DNA of 64,000 nucleotides from Mucilaginibacter sp. GTDB taxonomy: Bacteria; Bacteroidota; Bacteroidia; Sphingobacteriales; Sphingobacteriaceae. The position numbers were made by a program, and so were the translations under genes. The DNA is taken from contig JANXTT010000043.1 in NCBI GenBank assembly GCA_025352225.1, positions 1 through 64,000 on the forward strand. Direction: 5' to 3'. Every line of letters starts with the position of its first letter. Position 1 is the stretch's first letter. This document shows, one piece after another, positions 54,001-60,849 of the stretch. The notes below the pieces were generated by a model. It saw only the letters and a program-made list of their open reading frames with translations, made no database searches and was not told the origin of the DNA.

Positions 54001-55179
54001 CACCCAAACACGGTTTTTAGAGTCTTGATAAATGCTGAATACTTCCCTGCTTCCTAAACCGGCAGGTATGCCAGGGTTATAAGATATACAAGGGAATTTT
54101 GAGGTAATAGATTCTTTAATTGAAAGTCCGGCTATACTACCCACCCATATATTGTCTTCATTGTCTGCGTAAATAGTATTAAGGCCATTATCTATTAACG
54201 AATCGTAATCAAACGGGGCATTTTGATAATTTGTGAAGGTGTTGTTTTTTTTATTAAATACACTTATACCATAGTTTGTGGCTACCCAAATCATACCATC
54301 CTTTGTTTCGCATATTTTAGGAACATAATCTCCTAACAAACTGTTCGGATCGTTTTTATTGTGGTAAAAGTGGATAAAGGATTTATTTTTTTTATTGAAC
54401 AAGTTTAGCCCACCAAATGCAGTACCTACCCAAATACTTCCTTCAGAATCAACAAAAATAGTTCTTATAACATCTGTGCTTAAACTATTAGGATTATTTG
54501 TATGGGCATAATGAGTAAATGCATTCCGGTATTTATTAATTACTGTGATGCCACAATCTGCACCGATCCATAAATTACCTTCCTTATCTTCTTTTATAGC
54601 TCTAATTACATTACATATAAGTTGGTTATAGCCCTTGTATACCGATTTGAACTTTTTTGTTTTGCGATCAAATATATTGAGTCCGCCATCTTCAGTGCCC
54701 ACATAAAAAACCGCTTTACTATCTTCAAAAAAACAGGTAACCCTATTAGAACTTAAGCTTTGATTATCTTTTGGGTTATGTTTATAAACCGTAAACGTAT
54801 CTTGTTTAGAATCGTATATATTTACGCCTCCATTATCTGTCCCTACATACAATGTGCCGTTTTTATCAATGTATGTAGTTATAATATTGCTATTACTAAG
54901 TGCTCCCTTTACTTTAGAGTTGCTTCTGTATACTTTAAAAGTATAGCCATCGTATTTATTTAAACCATCAGAAGTTCCAATCCACACAAAACCATTATTA
55001 TCCTTGACTATATTTCTGATATAACTTTGCGAAAGGCCATCTCTTGAAGTTTTTCTACTGAACTTAGTTGCGTCTTGTGAATATAAATTATTGATAAATG
55101 GTGAAAATACACCTATGAGGAATATAACAATTGAATGTTTTTGTAGCATGTAAAATCTTTTGTTATCAGATAAAAGCAC
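51004..55179 (-). CDS. hybrid histidine kinase with periplasmic propeller sensor (HTCS-like, no HTH)
   Basis: Protein of 1391 residues. Signal/anchor at the N-terminus, then two seven-bladed reg_prop propellers (about 40-700; repeated [17 protein letters not shown] and the like), a Y_Y_Y domain (about 730-810; [16 protein letters not shown]), a membrane helix (about 820-840), a coiled coil, HisKA with [11 protein letters not shown], HATPase with [17 protein letters not shown] and GGTGLGL, then two receiver domains (DMQMPEMDG and DIQMPEMDG, each with a downstream SKP/TKP-type Lys). Unlike classical polysaccharide hybrids it has no AraC output domain, so it must signal through another protein. 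It is divergent from the MNIO cluster. Confidence 0.93.
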
Positions 55180-55771
55180 AACATTAGTATTTAAAACACC
55201 TTGAAAATGTGAGATATACTTGTTCTTATTAATTAAGTATGGTGTTTAGTTTTACGTAACTTTTGTATAAAAGTTTAATAAATATGGATTATGAAAGGCA
55301 TTCCAATATTTCTTTCGGGATATAGGAATATTAAAAGAAATGAATTGGAACTTGCGTGATACACCATAATACAAATCGTACGTCAACACAAATGATATGA
55401 ATCGTAATTATTATCCATTGATTGATTCGGAAGTAACGTTGAATTTTCATTGCCGGTAAATAACAATTCGAAATACAATAAAGCTGTTTTTTAGAGATAG
55501 CAATTAAAAGCCTTAATATAAGGCAATTATTTTAATTTTATAAAAAACATGATTTTATAACTAGCAGGTAATAGTGAGAGTTTAAAGCATCATATAATTG
55601 TTATCATTCTTAAAATTTACTTTTTATCAAAAGTATTATATACATTTAAGCTTTATTAAAACCAAGACTATCCTAATTACCTAGTATTATACAGAAGTTA
55701 ATTTAATTTCATAAATTAATATTTTAGTAAAAAGCAAGAAATAACATATTTAGATAATAAACCATATACCT
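55180..55771. other. 592-bp divergent intergenic region, no gene seen
   Basis: AT-rich, between the hybrid kinase and the ferritin-like gene. A stem of 5+8 bp (CCAAT-ATTTCTTT at 55303-55315 with AAAGAAAT-GA-ATTGG at 55334-55348) is the only clear structure. I found no full-consensus promoter and no intact reading frame of note. Regulatory sites for the MNIO operon would be expected here. Confidence 0.6.
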
Positions 55772-57157
55772 ATGTCACAAACAGCGTTTTTTAGTAAGAA
55801 CAGCGAGGTAACGCCTGATAATCTGGGCGCGGCCATTCAGCAGGCTATTGAAATTGAAATTTCAACCATCCCTATTTATCTCTATACCTATTATTCCATT
55901 AATCGTTCACCCGATCAGGATTCAATTAGCGGTTTTTTGGTACAACAATTACTGAAGCATGGAAAGTCGCTTACGGAGGCAAGCGCGATTGCTTTAGAAT
56001 TATCTGCCGAGATTATGGTTTACGCCAACAAGGCAGGTGCCTTGATTATGAGTGTCGCGATAGAAGAGATGTTGCATATGGCATTGTCTTCTAACTTAAA
56101 GCAAGCGCTTGCAGGGTTGCCGCAACTGGTTGGTAAATCACCTAGCGTGTGGCCAGCCTGCCTACCGGGGCACGAGCCTGTGTTTTGGATTAACAGAGCA
56201 AAGTTTTCGCTCGACCAGTTAATGACTTTTTTAAAAATAGAAAGTCCAGATCCGCTGCCTGACCCTAAACTACTTAAGGCGCCAATACCGTATAAAACAA
56301 TTGGTGAATTTTATGGAATGATAATTAATTGCATTGAAACAAATGATTTGCAATATAACACGCACTCGCCACAGTTAATACCTGGAAAAGGTTATTACGC
56401 CCAGAATAATATAGATACTATTTACTATGATAAACACCATAAACCTGTATACACTAACGCAGCCGACAGCGGAGACCTGGTATGTGTGTTCGATAGCGCA
56501 TCGGCAATACAGGCCATCACGTTTATTGTAGATCAGGGCGAAGGCAGTAAAGGCGCTCCGGGGCTCAATAAGGACGGTACAGTTGATTGCGGAGCCGTTG
56601 TTCCACCAGATTATGACGATCCTGAAAAGAAAGAGTTATCGCATTTTGAAAAGTTTGCGCAGATATATTGCACTTATAAAACCTTATCGGATAAATTTAA
56701 TCAGCTAGGTATCGGAGACATTGACATTAGTACATACTTTGTTATGGATGTGCCAACAAACCCCTCTACTGCTCAATATCCAAATCATATAAAACCCGTA
56801 TCCAACTTACTGAACGCTGTATATACATATATATTTGTTATGGTAGAAAATTGCTATTTAAAATCGGGAAGCACACAGTATGAGATTTTTATGTTTGGTA
56901 TTCACAAATCCATGATATTTATTCTCAATTCACTTTGTGGCGATATAATGAAACTCAAATATAAGGGCTCAGACAATGTAGAATATTTTGCAGCTCCAAC
57001 ATTTGAAGATTATCCCTTTGGTTTAGTGTCCAGCCCTAAATCACAATTAACAGACCTTTTTACTTTAGCCGTAACAGCATATCCAACCATACAATACCTT
57101 CAACAAAGAATATTGGACCTTCCGGATGTTCCATTGCAAATTGAGGGTAAATTTTAA
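55772..57157 (+). CDS. VioB-like ferritin-fold protein (iminophenyl-pyruvate dimer synthase-like domain)
   Basis: Protein of 461 residues without signal peptide. The N-terminal 200 residues form a ferritin-like four-helix bundle: AIEIEISTIPIYLYTYYSI (Glu27/Glu29) and SVAIEEMLHM (Glu98, Glu99, His102) supply the ExxH-type ligands of a non-haem di-iron site. This pattern is that of the ferritin-like domain in VioB/RebD-type enzymes, which are much longer. The C-terminal half (about 210-461) has no family I recognise. It is first in a four-gene cluster with a Cys-rich protein, a DUF692 enzyme and a DUF2063 protein. A second oxidative tailoring role is inferred from that context. Confidence 0.75.
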   Translation: MSQTAFFSKNSEVTPDNLGAAIQQAIEIEISTIPIYLYTYYSINRSPDQDSISGFLVQQLLKHGKSLTEASAIALELSAEIMVYANKAGALIMSVAIEEMLHMALSSNLKQALAGLPQLVGKSPSVWPACLPGHEPVFWINRAKFSLDQLMTFLKIESPDPLPDPKLLKAPIPYKTIGEFYGMIINCIETNDLQYNTHSPQLIPGKGYYAQNNIDTIYYDKHHKPVYTNAADSGDLVCVFDSASAIQAITFIVDQGEGSKGAPGLNKDGTVDCGAVVPPDYDDPEKKELSHFEKFAQIYCTYKTLSDKFNQLGIGDIDISTYFVMDVPTNPSTAQYPNHIKPVSNLLNAVYTYIFVMVENCYLKSGSTQYEIFMFGIHKSMIFILNSLCGDIMKLKYKGSDNVEYFAAPTFEDYPFGLVSSPKSQLTDLFTLAVTAYPTIQYLQQRILDLPDVPLQIEGKF

Positions 57158-57193
57158 AATAAATTTTAATTAAAAATATTAAACTGCAATATT

Positions 57194-57781
57194 ATGGCTA
57201 AGATAAATTATACGCCCAACGCATCACTTTGTGGTGGAAGTGGACCCGCACCAGCAGTTCCTGGCGCCGCTGCCAGCGTTAAACCCGCTATAGAACTTCA
57301 TGTTTGCATGGGCCTAAATGCCTGTAAGGGGCATGATCGTACCGGAACCAATAATTGCGCCGGCACTGGTTATTGTGCTACAGCAGAGCAACATAACTGC
57401 AAAACATTAAATAATTGCCGGGGGCAGGGTGGATGCGGGCTCTATGGGGATGCGCAAGAGCAAATGGTTCCGGGTGCAAACGACTGTGCATGGCAGGGTA
57501 GCTGCGCCGTACCCATACAAGCAGAACGTTTTAGTACATTAGGCGAAAATAAAGGCAAAAGTACATGGTTGCTGGCGCGTAAATTATTTGAAGAAAGAAT
57601 GGCAAAAGCGAATAGAAATGTAGGTTCTTCGCCTTTTCCATGTGGCCCACCTGAAAACTGGCTGACTACAGTGCTAGGCTCATATGATTCATGTGGAAAT
57701 AGCGGCGACAAGCGTTGTTCATTTGGTTTTAACAATCCGGATGTAAATGCTAAAGATCTTTGCGACGGAAAAGGGGACTAG
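57194..57781 (+). CDS. Cys-rich protein with five C-X5-C units, candidate MNIO substrate
   Basis: Protein of 195 residues with 14 cysteines and no signal peptide. C-X5-C spacing occurs five times: Cys38/44 (CMGLNAC), 55/61 (CAGTGYC), 69/75 (CKTLNNC), 75/81 (CRGQGGC) and 98/104 (CAWQGSC). Further cysteines are at 13, 150, 167, 175 and 190. The units are set in Gly/Asn-rich loops with motifs such as TNNCAG and GANDCAWQGSC that recall the Cys motifs of DUF2282/bufferin precursors. It lies 36 nt after the ferritin-like gene and 22 nt before the DUF692 gene. Cys to oxazolone/thioamide or thiooxazole chemistry by the MNIO enzyme is plausible but not shown. It could also be a metal-binding scaffold. 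Confidence 0.75.
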   Translation: MAKINYTPNASLCGGSGPAPAVPGAAASVKPAIELHVCMGLNACKGHDRTGTNNCAGTGYCATAEQHNCKTLNNCRGQGGCGLYGDAQEQMVPGANDCAWQGSCAVPIQAERFSTLGENKGKSTWLLARKLFEERMAKANRNVGSSPFPCGPPENWLTTVLGSYDSCGNSGDKRCSFGFNNPDVNAKDLCDGKGD

Positions 57782-57803
57782 TAGCATAAGCTTAAATAAA
57801 ACA

Positions 57804-58745
57804 ATGAGTGAAAAGAGGGGTGTATACCAGGATATAATTGAAAATTTGCCCAACCCAGGGCTTGGGTTGGGCCTGCGGAGCAAGCACTTTAATTATATCC
57901 TTGAACATAAACCTAGTGTGGATTGGTTTGAAGTGATATCAGAGAACTTTATGGACTCGGGCGGCAGGCCGCGCCATGTATTAAACCAGTTGGCCGAACA
58001 GTATGCTTTAGTAATGCATGGTGTATCGCTTTCTATCGGCAGTACCGATCTGCTAAATATTACATATCTTACCAAGTTAAAAATGTTGGCGAAAGAAGTA
58101 AATCCACTTTGGATCAGTGATCATTTATGCTGGACAGGGGTGAATAGCCTTAATACACACGATCTGCTGCCAGTAGTGCTTAATGAAGAATCATTAAAAC
58201 ATATCTGTATCCGTATTAACGAAGTGCAGGATTTTTTAGAACGCCCGGTTGTTTTTGAAAATCCAAGCACTTATCTTACATTCCGCCAATCTACTATTAA
58301 CGAATGGGATTTTTTACGATACATGACTGAAGAGACCGGTTGTGGTTTATTGCTTGATGTGAATAACGTGTATGTATCTGGTTTTAATAACGATTTTGAT
58401 CCAATACATTATATAGAGCAGTTACCGCATAAATCAATTGTGCAAATGCATATAGCCGGGCATCAACACTGCGGGAATTATATTATTGATACACACGATA
58501 GGAATGTAGTACAGGAAGTTTGGAAGTTATTTACGCTGGCCTGGCAATTAACAGGTGGGGTTGCCACTTTACTGGAGTGGGACAGCAATATTCCGGATTT
58601 TGAGGATTATCATAGCGAACTTTTAAAAGCCAGGAATTATATGAGCGCTATTTTCGATCAGCATATAATACCTGAAAAACAGGATTATAAGCACGCGGCT
58701 GTATCAAACCCAGTAAATTTTTTAGTAAATGATATTAAATGGTAA
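57804..58745 (+). CDS. DUF692 multinuclear non-haem iron oxygenase (MNIO)
   Basis: TIM-barrel enzyme of 313 residues in the MbnB/TglH/BufB family. Candidate iron ligands: His72 (VMHGVSLSIGS), Asp106/His107 (WISDHLCWTG), Glu152/Asn153 (FENPSTY), Asp185/Asn187 (LLDVNNVYV), His216/His220 (QMHIAGHQ), Asp229/His231 and Glu258/Asp260 (LLEWDSNIP). MNIO enzymes use O2 and two or three iron atoms to modify peptide cysteines. I start at ATG 57804 (MSEKRGVYQD): a longer frame from 57747 would overlap the preceding gene and begins with unrelated sequence. It precedes its DUF2063 partner by 37 nt. Confidence 0.92.
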   Translation: MSEKRGVYQDIIENLPNPGLGLGLRSKHFNYILEHKPSVDWFEVISENFMDSGGRPRHVLNQLAEQYALVMHGVSLSIGSTDLLNITYLTKLKMLAKEVNPLWISDHLCWTGVNSLNTHDLLPVVLNEESLKHICIRINEVQDFLERPVVFENPSTYLTFRQSTINEWDFLRYMTEETGCGLLLDVNNVYVSGFNNDFDPIHYIEQLPHKSIVQMHIAGHQHCGNYIIDTHDRNVVQEVWKLFTLAWQLTGGVATLLEWDSNIPDFEDYHSELLKARNYMSAIFDQHIIPEKQDYKHAAVSNPVNFLVNDIKW

Positions 58746-58782
58746 ATTGTAAACAGACAAATAATTGTACGGCCAATAAGAA

Positions 58783-59592
58783 ATGGAAAGAGACGGTTTT
58801 TCGTTAGGTCAAATACAAAATTGGATGCAATCCATATTATTAAAGGATGTAGCAGCAGTAGATAGTATTGCAGCAAATACTACCGTGGACGATATAGTTC
58901 ATTGTTCGAAACGGTTAAATGCAATTGGGCATCTTGATATTTACCGACATAGTTATATTGCCAGGCTCAGAGCCTGTATGCAAAATCAATTTAGTGCCTT
59001 GGCCTATGCATTGGGTAATGATTTGTTTGAGTTGTTTGCTGATCAATATCTGGCTGCCCATCCTTCTGATAGCTATACATTAAATACACTTGGAGAAAAA
59101 TTCCCTTCCTTTTTGGAGGAGACGCGGCCTGATGCTAGTGACGAACAAAAAGAAACTTGGCCAGATTTTATGATAGAGCTCGCGCGTTTTGAATACTCAC
59201 TCTCAGTTATTTTTGATCAAAATGAAAATGATGATAATCATCTATCAGAAGGCATCCCCGATGAAATGCTGAAACTAACTAGTGTATTTCATTTGTTTCA
59301 TCATCGTTTCCCTATTTGTGATTATTATTTGAACTTTAGCCAGCAGAACAAGCCCGAACTACCCTTTCCTGAAGAAAGTTTTTGCGTGGTTACACGTTTA
59401 AAATATAGGCTGGGGTTGTTTAATATTAAAAAAGCCCAATACTATTTTTTGGCAAGTATGCAACAAGGCAAATCTGTTGAAGAAGCCAAGCATGATCTTA
59501 TCCAACGCTTTAACTTCGACAAGATAGAACTAGATAATGTTTGGCTCGAATGGCGGTTGAGTTTTATTGCATCTGGCTTTTTCTGTACCTGA
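58783..59592 (+). CDS. DUF2063 (BufC/HvfC-like) partner of the MNIO enzyme
   Basis: Protein of 269 residues. The N-terminal 100 residues match the DUF2063 domain (LDIYRHSYIARLRACMQNQFSALAYALG), named putative DNA-binding but known in MbnC and BufC-type proteins as a substrate-recruiting partner that complexes with the DUF692 enzyme. The C-terminal half is a mixed domain (about 130-269), possibly for peptide recognition. It is the last gene of the cluster; the following 500 bp are non-coding. Confidence 0.85.
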   Translation: MERDGFSLGQIQNWMQSILLKDVAAVDSIAANTTVDDIVHCSKRLNAIGHLDIYRHSYIARLRACMQNQFSALAYALGNDLFELFADQYLAAHPSDSYTLNTLGEKFPSFLEETRPDASDEQKETWPDFMIELARFEYSLSVIFDQNENDDNHLSEGIPDEMLKLTSVFHLFHHRFPICDYYLNFSQQNKPELPFPEESFCVVTRLKYRLGLFNIKKAQYYFLASMQQGKSVEEAKHDLIQRFNFDKIELDNVWLEWRLSFIASGFFCT

Positions 59593-60096
59593 AGCAATTG
59601 AATCTAAATCAACTGAACGCAGGAATCAGTATACGAAAATATATTCCGTGTTAAAAATTGTTATCATCATTGTCTATTTATGATTTTTTGATCAAGTTAG
59701 TTTATCCTTAAAATTATTTTTTCGCCATTTTGTATCCTTTTATATTTGTATTTATATATACTGACCCAAAAAAAGCCGCTAGTTAATTTTATTCATTAAA
59801 TTATTAGCAATTGTTAAAAAAAACATATCTCATTATTAATTTAATCGCCTAAATATTTACTTAATGAGGATTATTTCTCAATATATGCATCTTAATTTGG
59901 TAAAATATATGATTTATGTCATATTTGCATTAAATAGATGGTTATTTAAGTGGTTTGGTAACGAACAACTATTTACAATAAAATGTCTATTAGGTTTGGT
60001 TATCTTATTAAATTGTCAAACCTTTATCCTGCAAAACCGAATGCATTATTAATTGAAAAATGTAACGCGATTTAATATAAGCAGGACTTAAATATT
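59593..60096. other. 504-bp intergenic region, no supported gene
   Basis: Strongly AT-rich. A 62-codon frame at 59864-60052 (start MRIISQYMHLNLVK) is hydrophobic and low in complexity and is not supported. No terminator with a good stem, RNA gene or full promoter consensus was found, although the MNIO operon end and the start signals of the sugar-phosphate operon must lie here. Confidence 0.5.
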
Positions 60097-60849
60097 ATGA
60101 AACAAACATCACAAGGTAATAAAATACTCTCTATTGATATTGGGGGCTCACATATTAAAGCAACTATACTAGATGAGCAAGGTGCTTTGATAATGGATTA
60201 TCAAAAAATTGTAACCCCAGAAGTTCCTGCACCAAAGCAACTTATTACCGCTATCCAAACACTCATTAAAGATTTTCCGTCGTACGATAAAGTATCTGTC
60301 GGATTTCCGGGTTATGTAAAAAACGGTGTTATTTTTACTGCGCCGAATTTAGGTACAGATGCATGGAAAGGTTTTGATTTGGCAAAAAACTTAGAAGCCA
60401 CACTAGGCAAACCAACAAAAGTAGTTAATGATGCCGATATGCAGGGCCTTGGGGTGGTAGATGGTAAAGGCTTCGAATTGGTTTTAACGCTTGGAACAGG
60501 TTTTGGAACAGCATTACTTATGGATGGAGCTTTGTTGCCACATCTGGAAATGGCACATCATCCTGTAACAAAAAGCAAAACTTATGATATTTTTATTGGC
60601 GAAAAGGCATTAGAAAAAGAGGGTGAAAAGGAATGGAACGAGCGGCTTAAACATGTGCTAGGTATTTTGAAAACCGTATTTAACTACGATAAATTGTATA
60701 TAGGAGGCGGAAATTCAAGTAAAATTAATTTTAAATTGGATGATAATATCCGTGTGGTTTCTAATCGCGACGGTATAAAAGGTGGTTCAAGATTATGGCA
60801 ATATGATGATCGCCACGATCTGATCACCGCAGTAAGTCATAAAGAATAA
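60097..60849 (+). CDS. polyphosphate glucokinase-like ROK-family kinase
   Basis: Sugar kinase of 250 residues of the ROK/PPGK group: phosphate-1 motif LSIDIGGSHIKATI, SVGFPGYVKNG, catalytic VVNDADMQGLG and LTLGTGFGTALLMDG. The short length and VVNDADMQG match the polyphosphate glucokinase branch, which phosphorylates glucose with polyphosphate or ATP. A PPK2 gene elsewhere in the window would fit polyphosphate use. It lies 25 nt before transketolase, so it may feed glucose 6-phosphate into the pentose-phosphate operon. Confidence 0.88.
   Translation: MKQTSQGNKILSIDIGGSHIKATILDEQGALIMDYQKIVTPEVPAPKQLITAIQTLIKDFPSYDKVSVGFPGYVKNGVIFTAPNLGTDAWKGFDLAKNLEATLGKPTKVVNDADMQGLGVVDGKGFELVLTLGTGFGTALLMDGALLPHLEMAHHPVTKSKTYDIFIGEKALEKEGEKEWNERLKHVLGILKTVFNYDKLYIGGGNSSKINFKLDDNIRVVSNRDGIKGGSRLWQYDDRHDLITAVSHKE

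Follow-up and report, generated by a model that had tools for sequence, protein, structure and literature searches.

A recurrent four-gene module linking a ferritin-like protein to a bufferin-related Cys-rich protein and its candidate MNIO maturase in Mucilaginibacter and other bacteria

Introduction

What does a ferritin-like protein do at the head of an operon whose other genes resemble those of a bufferin system? Known bufferins and oxazolins are copper chelators that the cell exports. The question is raised by four genes at positions 55772-59592 of a 64 000 nt stretch of Mucilaginibacter sp. DNA (GenBank assembly GCA_025352225.1, contig JANXTT010000043.1, positions 1 to 64 000; the window), which lie head to tail on the + strand with intergenic gaps of 36, 22 and 37 nt and encode a ferritin-like protein (FER), a Cys-rich protein, an MNIO (DUF692) enzyme and its DUF2063 partner. 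An initial annotation had described these co-directional genes, their gaps and their identities, and all of this was borne out by the coordinates, by the Pfam families PF12902, PF05114 and PF09836 and by a count of 14 Cys in the second protein. Our study indicates that the four genes are, with near certainty, one module, and that a ferritin-linked branch of the bufferin world is real, recurrent and undescribed in the literature searched.

Results

Linkage and distribution

The Cys-rich protein alone was the query when 84 980 species genomes were scanned by pattern; this returned 56 relatives and, together with the window locus, gave 57 loci from Bacteroidota, Pseudomonadota, Acidobacteriota and Actinomycetota. 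An MNIO homologue was found near the Cys-rich gene in 57/57 loci (in L054 as a remnant), a FER gene in 56/57 and a DUF2063 gene in 55/57; L054 lacked both the FER and the DUF2063 gene, and L020, whose contig breaks off there, lacked the DUF2063 gene. The linkage goes beyond chance, as it is found again in loci retrieved with no query other than the Cys-rich gene, and the recurrent four-gene linkage that the initial annotation had named as its own test was observed. In L054 (Kitasatospora) the reading frame of the Cys-rich gene continues into the end of the MNIO gene and no DUF2063 or FER gene was found, so that this locus is apparently a deletion remnant. Intergenic gaps across the loci were short for the most part, reaching several hundred nt in a few. 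The expectation that the ferritin gene leads the operon held for the window, but the gene is last in seven intact actinomycete loci, and two lineages have it joined to the Cys-rich domain. Clusters of open reading frames (ORFs) shared by at least 4 of the 57 loci beyond the four genes came from close relatives or were, by eye, antisense ORFs, in a survey that did not search rarer families or DoxX by its own model.

The same association was seen when whole genomes were sampled. A profile of the Cys-rich family gave eight matches in 395 Bacteroidota genomes, seven of them family members with all four genes (7/7) and the eighth, L110, a short protein whose N-terminus resembles a signal. At E < 1e-130, members of the FER subfamily occurred seven times in these genomes, in operon context every time; six weaker FER matches were also present, two being FER-Cys fusions. 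MNIO homologues (E ≤ 1e-20) were found in 20/395 genomes, accounting for seven operons, two fusions and three enzymes beside short peptides, and the remaining eight genomes had more distant enzymes only. Within the genus of the window, a stand-alone Cys-rich gene was present in 13/149 genomes, accompanied by the other three genes in 13/13. The pairwise distances of the four proteins were correlated over 36 loci (Mantel r 0.66-0.89, with 0/999 permutations as high for each pair), the value for the Cys-rich protein and FER being 0.877 and the lowest, for the Cys-rich protein and the MNIO enzyme, 0.664.

Fusion of FER to the Cys-rich domain

Two MNIO relatives in the genus of the window (L145 and L146) are preceded by an ORF of ~700 aa in which FER and Cys-rich parts are joined (L145:2596-4686; also in L153-L167 and L190-L194). 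This fusion was present in 27/149 genomes of the genus, every match extending to the C-terminal end of the query. An MNIO gene adjoins it in 27/27 (15 genomes, L153-L167; 7 genomes, L179-L189; and 5 more), and a DUF2063 gene lies beside it in the 20/27 where the fetched stretch extends far enough. The N-terminal part of the fusion belongs to PF12902 (P0005, E 3.6e-20), the neighbour of P0005 belongs to PF09836 (E 3.5e-15), and ELFTIP, EMLH, QGEG and HF motifs were seen by eye at the ligand positions of the FER part. The Cys-rich part is at the C-terminus and, in a profile of 13 of 15 sequences (two were missed by the motif), was aligned by hhalign with the stand-alone family at a probability of 97.75 and a score of 80.5, against 16.3 for the reversed profile. 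Further similar sequence follows the fused Cys domain in the 13 C-termini inspected. The fusion of L194 has an additional Cys/Gly-rich stretch inside its Cys-rich part.

A separate fusion was found in Pleionea sediminis (L046:4468-6495), where FER and a Cys-rich domain of the stand-alone type form one frame of 675 aa. No export signal was seen by eye in the fusions of L145, L146 and L046. Stand-alone and fused forms occurred together in 0/149 genomes of the genus, and the chance probability of this zero is 0.066, which makes a mutual exclusion of the two forms within genomes suggestive only.

The Cys-rich protein

The Cys-rich protein (57194-57781, + strand) has 195 aa and no Pfam match, and is the proposed substrate of the MNIO enzyme. 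Its conserved Cys core, residues 38-104 (57305-57505, + strand), contains the eight Cys (38, 44, 61, 69, 75, 81, 98 and 104) that, like H36 and H67, are invariant across aligned homologues, in 54/54 sequences (three of the 57 loci were omitted, the remnant L054 and the near-copies L013 and L038). The regular C-x5-C pattern noted at the outset was located as five units, C38-C44, C55-C61, C69-C75, C75-C81 and C98-C104. Across 56 members (L054 omitted, start codons assigned by a rule of our own choosing) the family spans 155-277 aa and 8-22 Cys. NGC[GS] motifs precede the core in 20/56 members, and 16/56 have no Cys before the core, with an MNIO homologue still adjoining. In L026, L028, L029 and L030 (Kordia, Aquimarina), NGCGSS-type motifs are repeated before the core and the total rises to as many as 22 Cys. 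Actinomycete members (L048-L053) have instead a Cys-free N-terminus that appears leader-like by eye (e.g. LANLEDIPVLIAGG), replacing the Cys/Gly/Pro-rich one.

The suggestion that the candidate substrate lacks a Sec signal agrees with its N-terminus, which is not strongly hydrophobic by hydropathy. The best 12-residue hydropathy had a median of 1.14 in the 56 family members compared to 2.16 in 29 BufA2 proteins, hydropathy being a proxy for a Sec signal here, with ranges that overlap (family ≤1.95 where the start is uncertain; BufA2 ≥1.59) and search windows that were unequal (the first 55 and the first 40 residues, respectively).

Comparison with Buf2 suggests where the core comes from. The BufA2 model scored 22.5 bits with the Cys-rich protein of the window, below its cut-off of 60, and matched 52/54 family members at E ≤ 1 (best E 5.9e-7). 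The family was then compared by hhalign with 29 Buf2 domains, selected by their Cys-spacing pattern, giving a probability of 96.9, an E value of 1.6e-10 and a score of 57.6, against control scores of 25.3 for the reversed profile and 20.6 for the best of 30 shuffles with Cys fixed. Five of the six Buf2 Cys (Cys 1-5) align with C38, C44, C61, C69 and C75. On these alignments, the Cys-rich core is most probably related to Buf2 and expanded by extra C-x5-C units. No solved structure matched the profile of the Cys-rich family by sequence at E ≤ 1.

The MNIO enzyme and its DUF2063 partner

The MNIO enzyme (57804-58745, + strand; 313 aa) matches PF05114 at E 1.4e-103 (346.2 bits, cut-off 25) and is of the bufferin-maturase type, scoring 347.4 bits with the NCBIfam model MNIO_BufB, above the cut-off of 310. 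The first in-frame ATG of its ORF is at 57747 (332 aa); the start at 57804 was adopted, and close homologues align from residue 1. Alignments covered 37 MNIO, 40 DUF2063 and 51 FER proteins out of the 57 loci. All 37 operon MNIOs match MNIO_BufB at E ≤ 1e-5, and many His, Asp and Glu columns of the alignment, some of which may be iron ligands, are invariant across the 37 rows. The partner (58783-59592, + strand; 269 aa) is a DUF2063 protein (PME-type 1) that matches PF09836 at E 3.3e-16 (59.8 bits, cut-off 27.2), a family found at E ≤ 0.01 in 40/40 aligned partner proteins. No solved structure matched the DUF2063 profile by sequence at E ≤ 1.

Two phylogenies were inferred, both quick and supported by the Shimodaira–Hasegawa-like approximate likelihood ratio test (SH-aLRT) only, with 3 and 2 rows as the Buf1-linked outgroup and long branches flagged. 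In the tree of 93 MNIOs, which omits short pieces, duplicates, L054 and L055, 59 operon enzymes fall together on one side of a branch (SH-aLRT 85), next to Buf2-linked enzymes. The tree of 108 MNIOs, which also omits L072, L038 and L062 and includes 16 of the 27 fusion-linked MNIOs, places operon, fusion and three short-peptide-linked enzymes on one side of a branch (SH-aLRT 99). All 16 fusion-linked MNIOs fall inside a branch shared with non-actinomycete operons (SH-aLRT 99), and because of this nesting the fusion seems to be derived from the four-gene form.

The three short peptides, from other Bacteroidota (L147:2352-2594, - strand; L148:2123-2365; L149:3220-3519), are Lys/Cys-rich and of CKG type with a signal-like N-terminus, and the MNIOs near them are 57-58 % identical to that of the window. 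A DoxX gene (PF07681, E 2.3e-20) is also present in L148, and L149 gave no DUF2063 match. A further Bacteroidota ORF without a Pfam match (L151:2063-2494) has repeated GKCG motifs and a signal-like N-terminus, precedes a distant MNIO, is accompanied by a sigma-factor-like ORF, and by appearance belongs to an oxazolin-type cluster.

The ferritin-like protein

FER (55772-57157, + strand; 461 aa) matches PF12902 at E 5.9e-36 (124.8 bits, cut-off 22.3). Its AlphaFold2 (AF2) model has a mean predicted local distance difference test score (pLDDT) of 88.3, and its best match among solved structures was 3hl1 (CC_0557 of Caulobacter), with a Z score of 23.5, a root-mean-square deviation of 2.8 over 261 residues and a Foldseek E value of 5.9e-4. 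Bacterioferritins and Dps followed at Z 9-11, scores that unrelated helical bundles can also attain. Candidate di-metal ligands are E29, E99-xx-H102, E257 and E288-xx-H291; E29, E99, H102, E257 and H291 are present in 51/51 aligned homologues and E288 in 50/51. Judging from the fold, these conserved residues would bind iron. The label 'VioB-like' given to this protein proved marginal, and a VioB-type pathway was rejected, as FER scored 19.2 bits with TIGR04492 against a cut-off of 1250; the nearest solved structure is CC_0557. A second PF12902 protein of the same genome lies on another contig (G000:C99:54600-55271, L059) and scored 221.6 bits compared to 125.8 for the FER of the operon. In another Bacteroidota genome (L150:144-5223), a PF12902 gene (E 4e-51) lies between a GMC-oxidoreductase-like ORF, so named by eye, and another large ORF, a different context for this family.

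Surroundings of the locus

Upstream of the operon, on the opposite strand, lies a hybrid two-component sensor gene, and the 3' neighbour is a ROK-family gene. Within the four genes no protease or exporter ORF was found and, as had been stated from the start, no transporter ORF. The genome of the window has one PF05114 match and no match to PF10048 (Buf1). No riboswitch reached the gathering score in 55000-60200, no exact 9-mer was common to more than 4 of 15 upstream regions, and a tblastn search of 72 556 plasmid records with P0002 gave no match at E ≤ 1e-3.

Discussion

Our study suggests that this locus could be a cytosolic, ferritin-associated derivative of a bufferin system, a reading that we place first and rate at even chances. 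MNIO and DUF2063 would oxidize some of the conserved Cys of the Buf2-like protein into metal-binding groups, for example thiooxazoles, as their families lead one to expect; the substrate of the MNIO enzyme is very probably the Cys-rich protein. The full-length product would stay in the cytosol, in keeping with the lack of a visible signal peptide and of any protease or transporter ORF among the four genes. The modified protein would be a partner, or a built-in domain, of the ferritin-like di-metal protein, and FER would probably oxidize or store metal (iron or copper) held or delivered by the modified domain. Joint action of the two is proposed because of the two fusion lineages, the conserved linkage and the correlated divergence, and we give about even odds to a lasting role of the product beside FER, as its partner in metal handling. 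More tentatively, and with some doubt, the bufferin-like domain could be modified in place, with no released peptide, and act permanently as the subunit that loads metal into, or does redox chemistry for, a ferritin-like di-iron oxidase. The domain would be a protein of its own in four phyla and part of a single chain with the oxidase in many Mucilaginibacter.

Several observations weigh against this interpretation. Fusion and linkage show joint action rather than the use of the product by FER, and FER could be modifying the Cys-rich protein. Correlated protein distances are also expected under shared descent, for which there was no control. The reversed-profile control of the Buf2 comparison still reached a probability of 32 %, and the AF2 model of the Cys-rich protein was poor (pLDDT 57.5). 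In the tree of 108 MNIOs, operon and fusion enzymes without the three short-peptide-linked enzymes do not form one side of a branch (2 changes). Published signal-less precursors are reported with PME-type 2 partners (PMC12452194), whereas the partner here is DUF2063. A convergent major facilitator superfamily transporter gene lies directly behind the fusion operons (L145:6454-7662, PF07690; L146:6497-7699), and export at these two loci could yet take place. In nine loci of Mucilaginibacter type a convergent Nramp transporter gene lies behind the operon, including L002:8522-9814 (PF01566, E 3.8e-74); the window has no Nramp at that place.

The strongest rival, although one we consider less likely, is that FER carries out a second tailoring step, as a di-iron oxygenase or oxidase acting on the MNIO-treated Cys-rich protein, with the fusions as enzyme-substrate fusions. 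Borosins are fusions of this kind, the substrate part is C-terminal in the fusions seen here, and PF12902 includes the biosynthetic enzyme VioB, to which the match of FER is weak (19.2 bits). The same linkage, fusion and correlated divergence would fit, and in the cited part of PMC4417212 a PF12902 gene lies near lodA/lodB, an oxidase system with post-translational modification, in five fungal cases. However, the operon has no protease or exporter to release a tailored peptide, and similar sequence continues past the fused Cys domain in the C-termini inspected. A lasting partnership of FER and the Cys-rich protein is favoured over tailoring, as far as gene content can tell, by the fusions and by the lack of a signal, exporter and protease within the operon.

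It is improbable that the eight invariant Cys instead bind metal (Fe-S, Zn or Cu) in unmodified form, with the MNIO enzyme acting on another target or on the variable Cys-Gly motifs outside the core. Such a site would agree with the invariance of the core in 54/54 sequences, with the NGC[GS] motifs before it in 20/56 members and with a total that varies from 8 to 22 Cys. However, it is in the core that the homology to Buf2 lies, and for Buf2 preliminary work reports a mass loss per Cys (PMC12452194), and the members with no Cys before the core keep an adjoining MNIO homologue. Least probable of all is that FER serves the MNIO enzyme only, by supplying iron to its multi-iron cofactor or by keeping O2 or peroxide away from it, with the Cys-rich protein as an ordinary free metal buffer. 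The ferritin fold and the multinuclear iron centres of MNIO enzymes (PMC12452194) would suit such a role, but it is the Cys-rich protein and not MNIO to which FER is fused, and the bufferin core in the results sections consulted of that paper comprises precursor, MNIO, DUF2063 and DoxX genes and no ferritin gene.

If the modification occurs, a partnership between FER and a modified Cys-rich protein would mean that the products of MNIO enzymes also include functional parts of metalloproteins inside the cell. It would link modification of the type seen in ribosomally synthesized and post-translationally modified peptides (RiPPs) to the chemistry of iron or copper storage or of oxidases, and would break with the rule, proposed for precursors without a signal, of pairing with a PME-type 2 partner. 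The fused form would reduce such a system to a single polypeptide with two maturation proteins, a compact case for study.

Comparison with known systems

In an open-access literature search, no paper came up that connects MNIO or DUF692 with ferritin or ferritin-like genes. The main text of PMC12452194 does not use the word 'ferritin', and a term search of PMC12668002 gave no occurrence of it; passages of PMC8224329 list DUF692 genes among copper-induced Caulobacter genes and have 'ferritin-like' only in a reference. The cluster rule in PMC12452194 joins unrelated genes only within 10 bp, which could have hidden a gene 36 nt away.

The Cys-rich precursor may belong to a published, uncharacterized family, adjamnio-I, with which it was compared by reported description only. 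The adjamnio-I putative precursors (Antoine et al. 2025, Table 2; PMC12452194) are 100 sequences of 122-293 aa with 8-21 Cys, no signal and a gene before MNIO. The family described here likewise has no visible signal and precedes MNIO, with 155-277 aa and 8-22 Cys, one member lying above the adjamnio-I range. They differ in the partner, which is reported as PME-type 2 without a DUF2063 signature for adjamnio-I, whereas DUF2063 was found in 40/40 family partners. If the precursor is adjamnio-I, it is already listed and the new part is the ferritin link with its fusions. The description of the cluster as undescribed and unusual stood for the conserved four-gene module and not for its Cys-rich component, which is homologous to Buf2 and may already be listed.

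FER resembles other PF12902 proteins (CC_0557/3hl1 and VioB) in family, fold and candidate ligand positions. It differs in its length, 461 aa compared to 317 for the 3hl1 chain, in its tie to an MNIO system and in its score on the VioB model, given above. With Buf_EGKCG/oxazolins (HvfABC) the module shares an MNIO and a DUF2063 protein that act, here putatively, on a Cys-rich protein, some of their precursors also being long, but these have EGKCG repeats and Sec signals (PMC12452194), and the MNIO enzyme of the window scored 245.7 bits on the HvfB model, whose cut-off is 360.

The likeness to Buf2 (BufA2, Buf_6/12Cys; BufB-BufC), one of the closest known systems, lies in a homologous Cys core, an MNIO of the bufferin-maturase type, a DUF2063 partner and the gene order precursor-MNIO-DUF2063. 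Lengths overlap, whereas Buf2 proteins have 6 Cys in 90 % of cases and 12 in the rest (PMC12452194), compared to 8-22 in this family. An absorption band at 305 nm is reported for bufferins (PMC12452194). Unlike Buf2, the family has no visible Sec signal and has a FER partner that is in places fused to it, and its member in the window falls under the BufA2 cut-off. In summary, set against exported chelators, the module described here presents a bufferin-homologous Cys core without a visible signal, tied to a ferritin-like protein and fused to it in two lineages.

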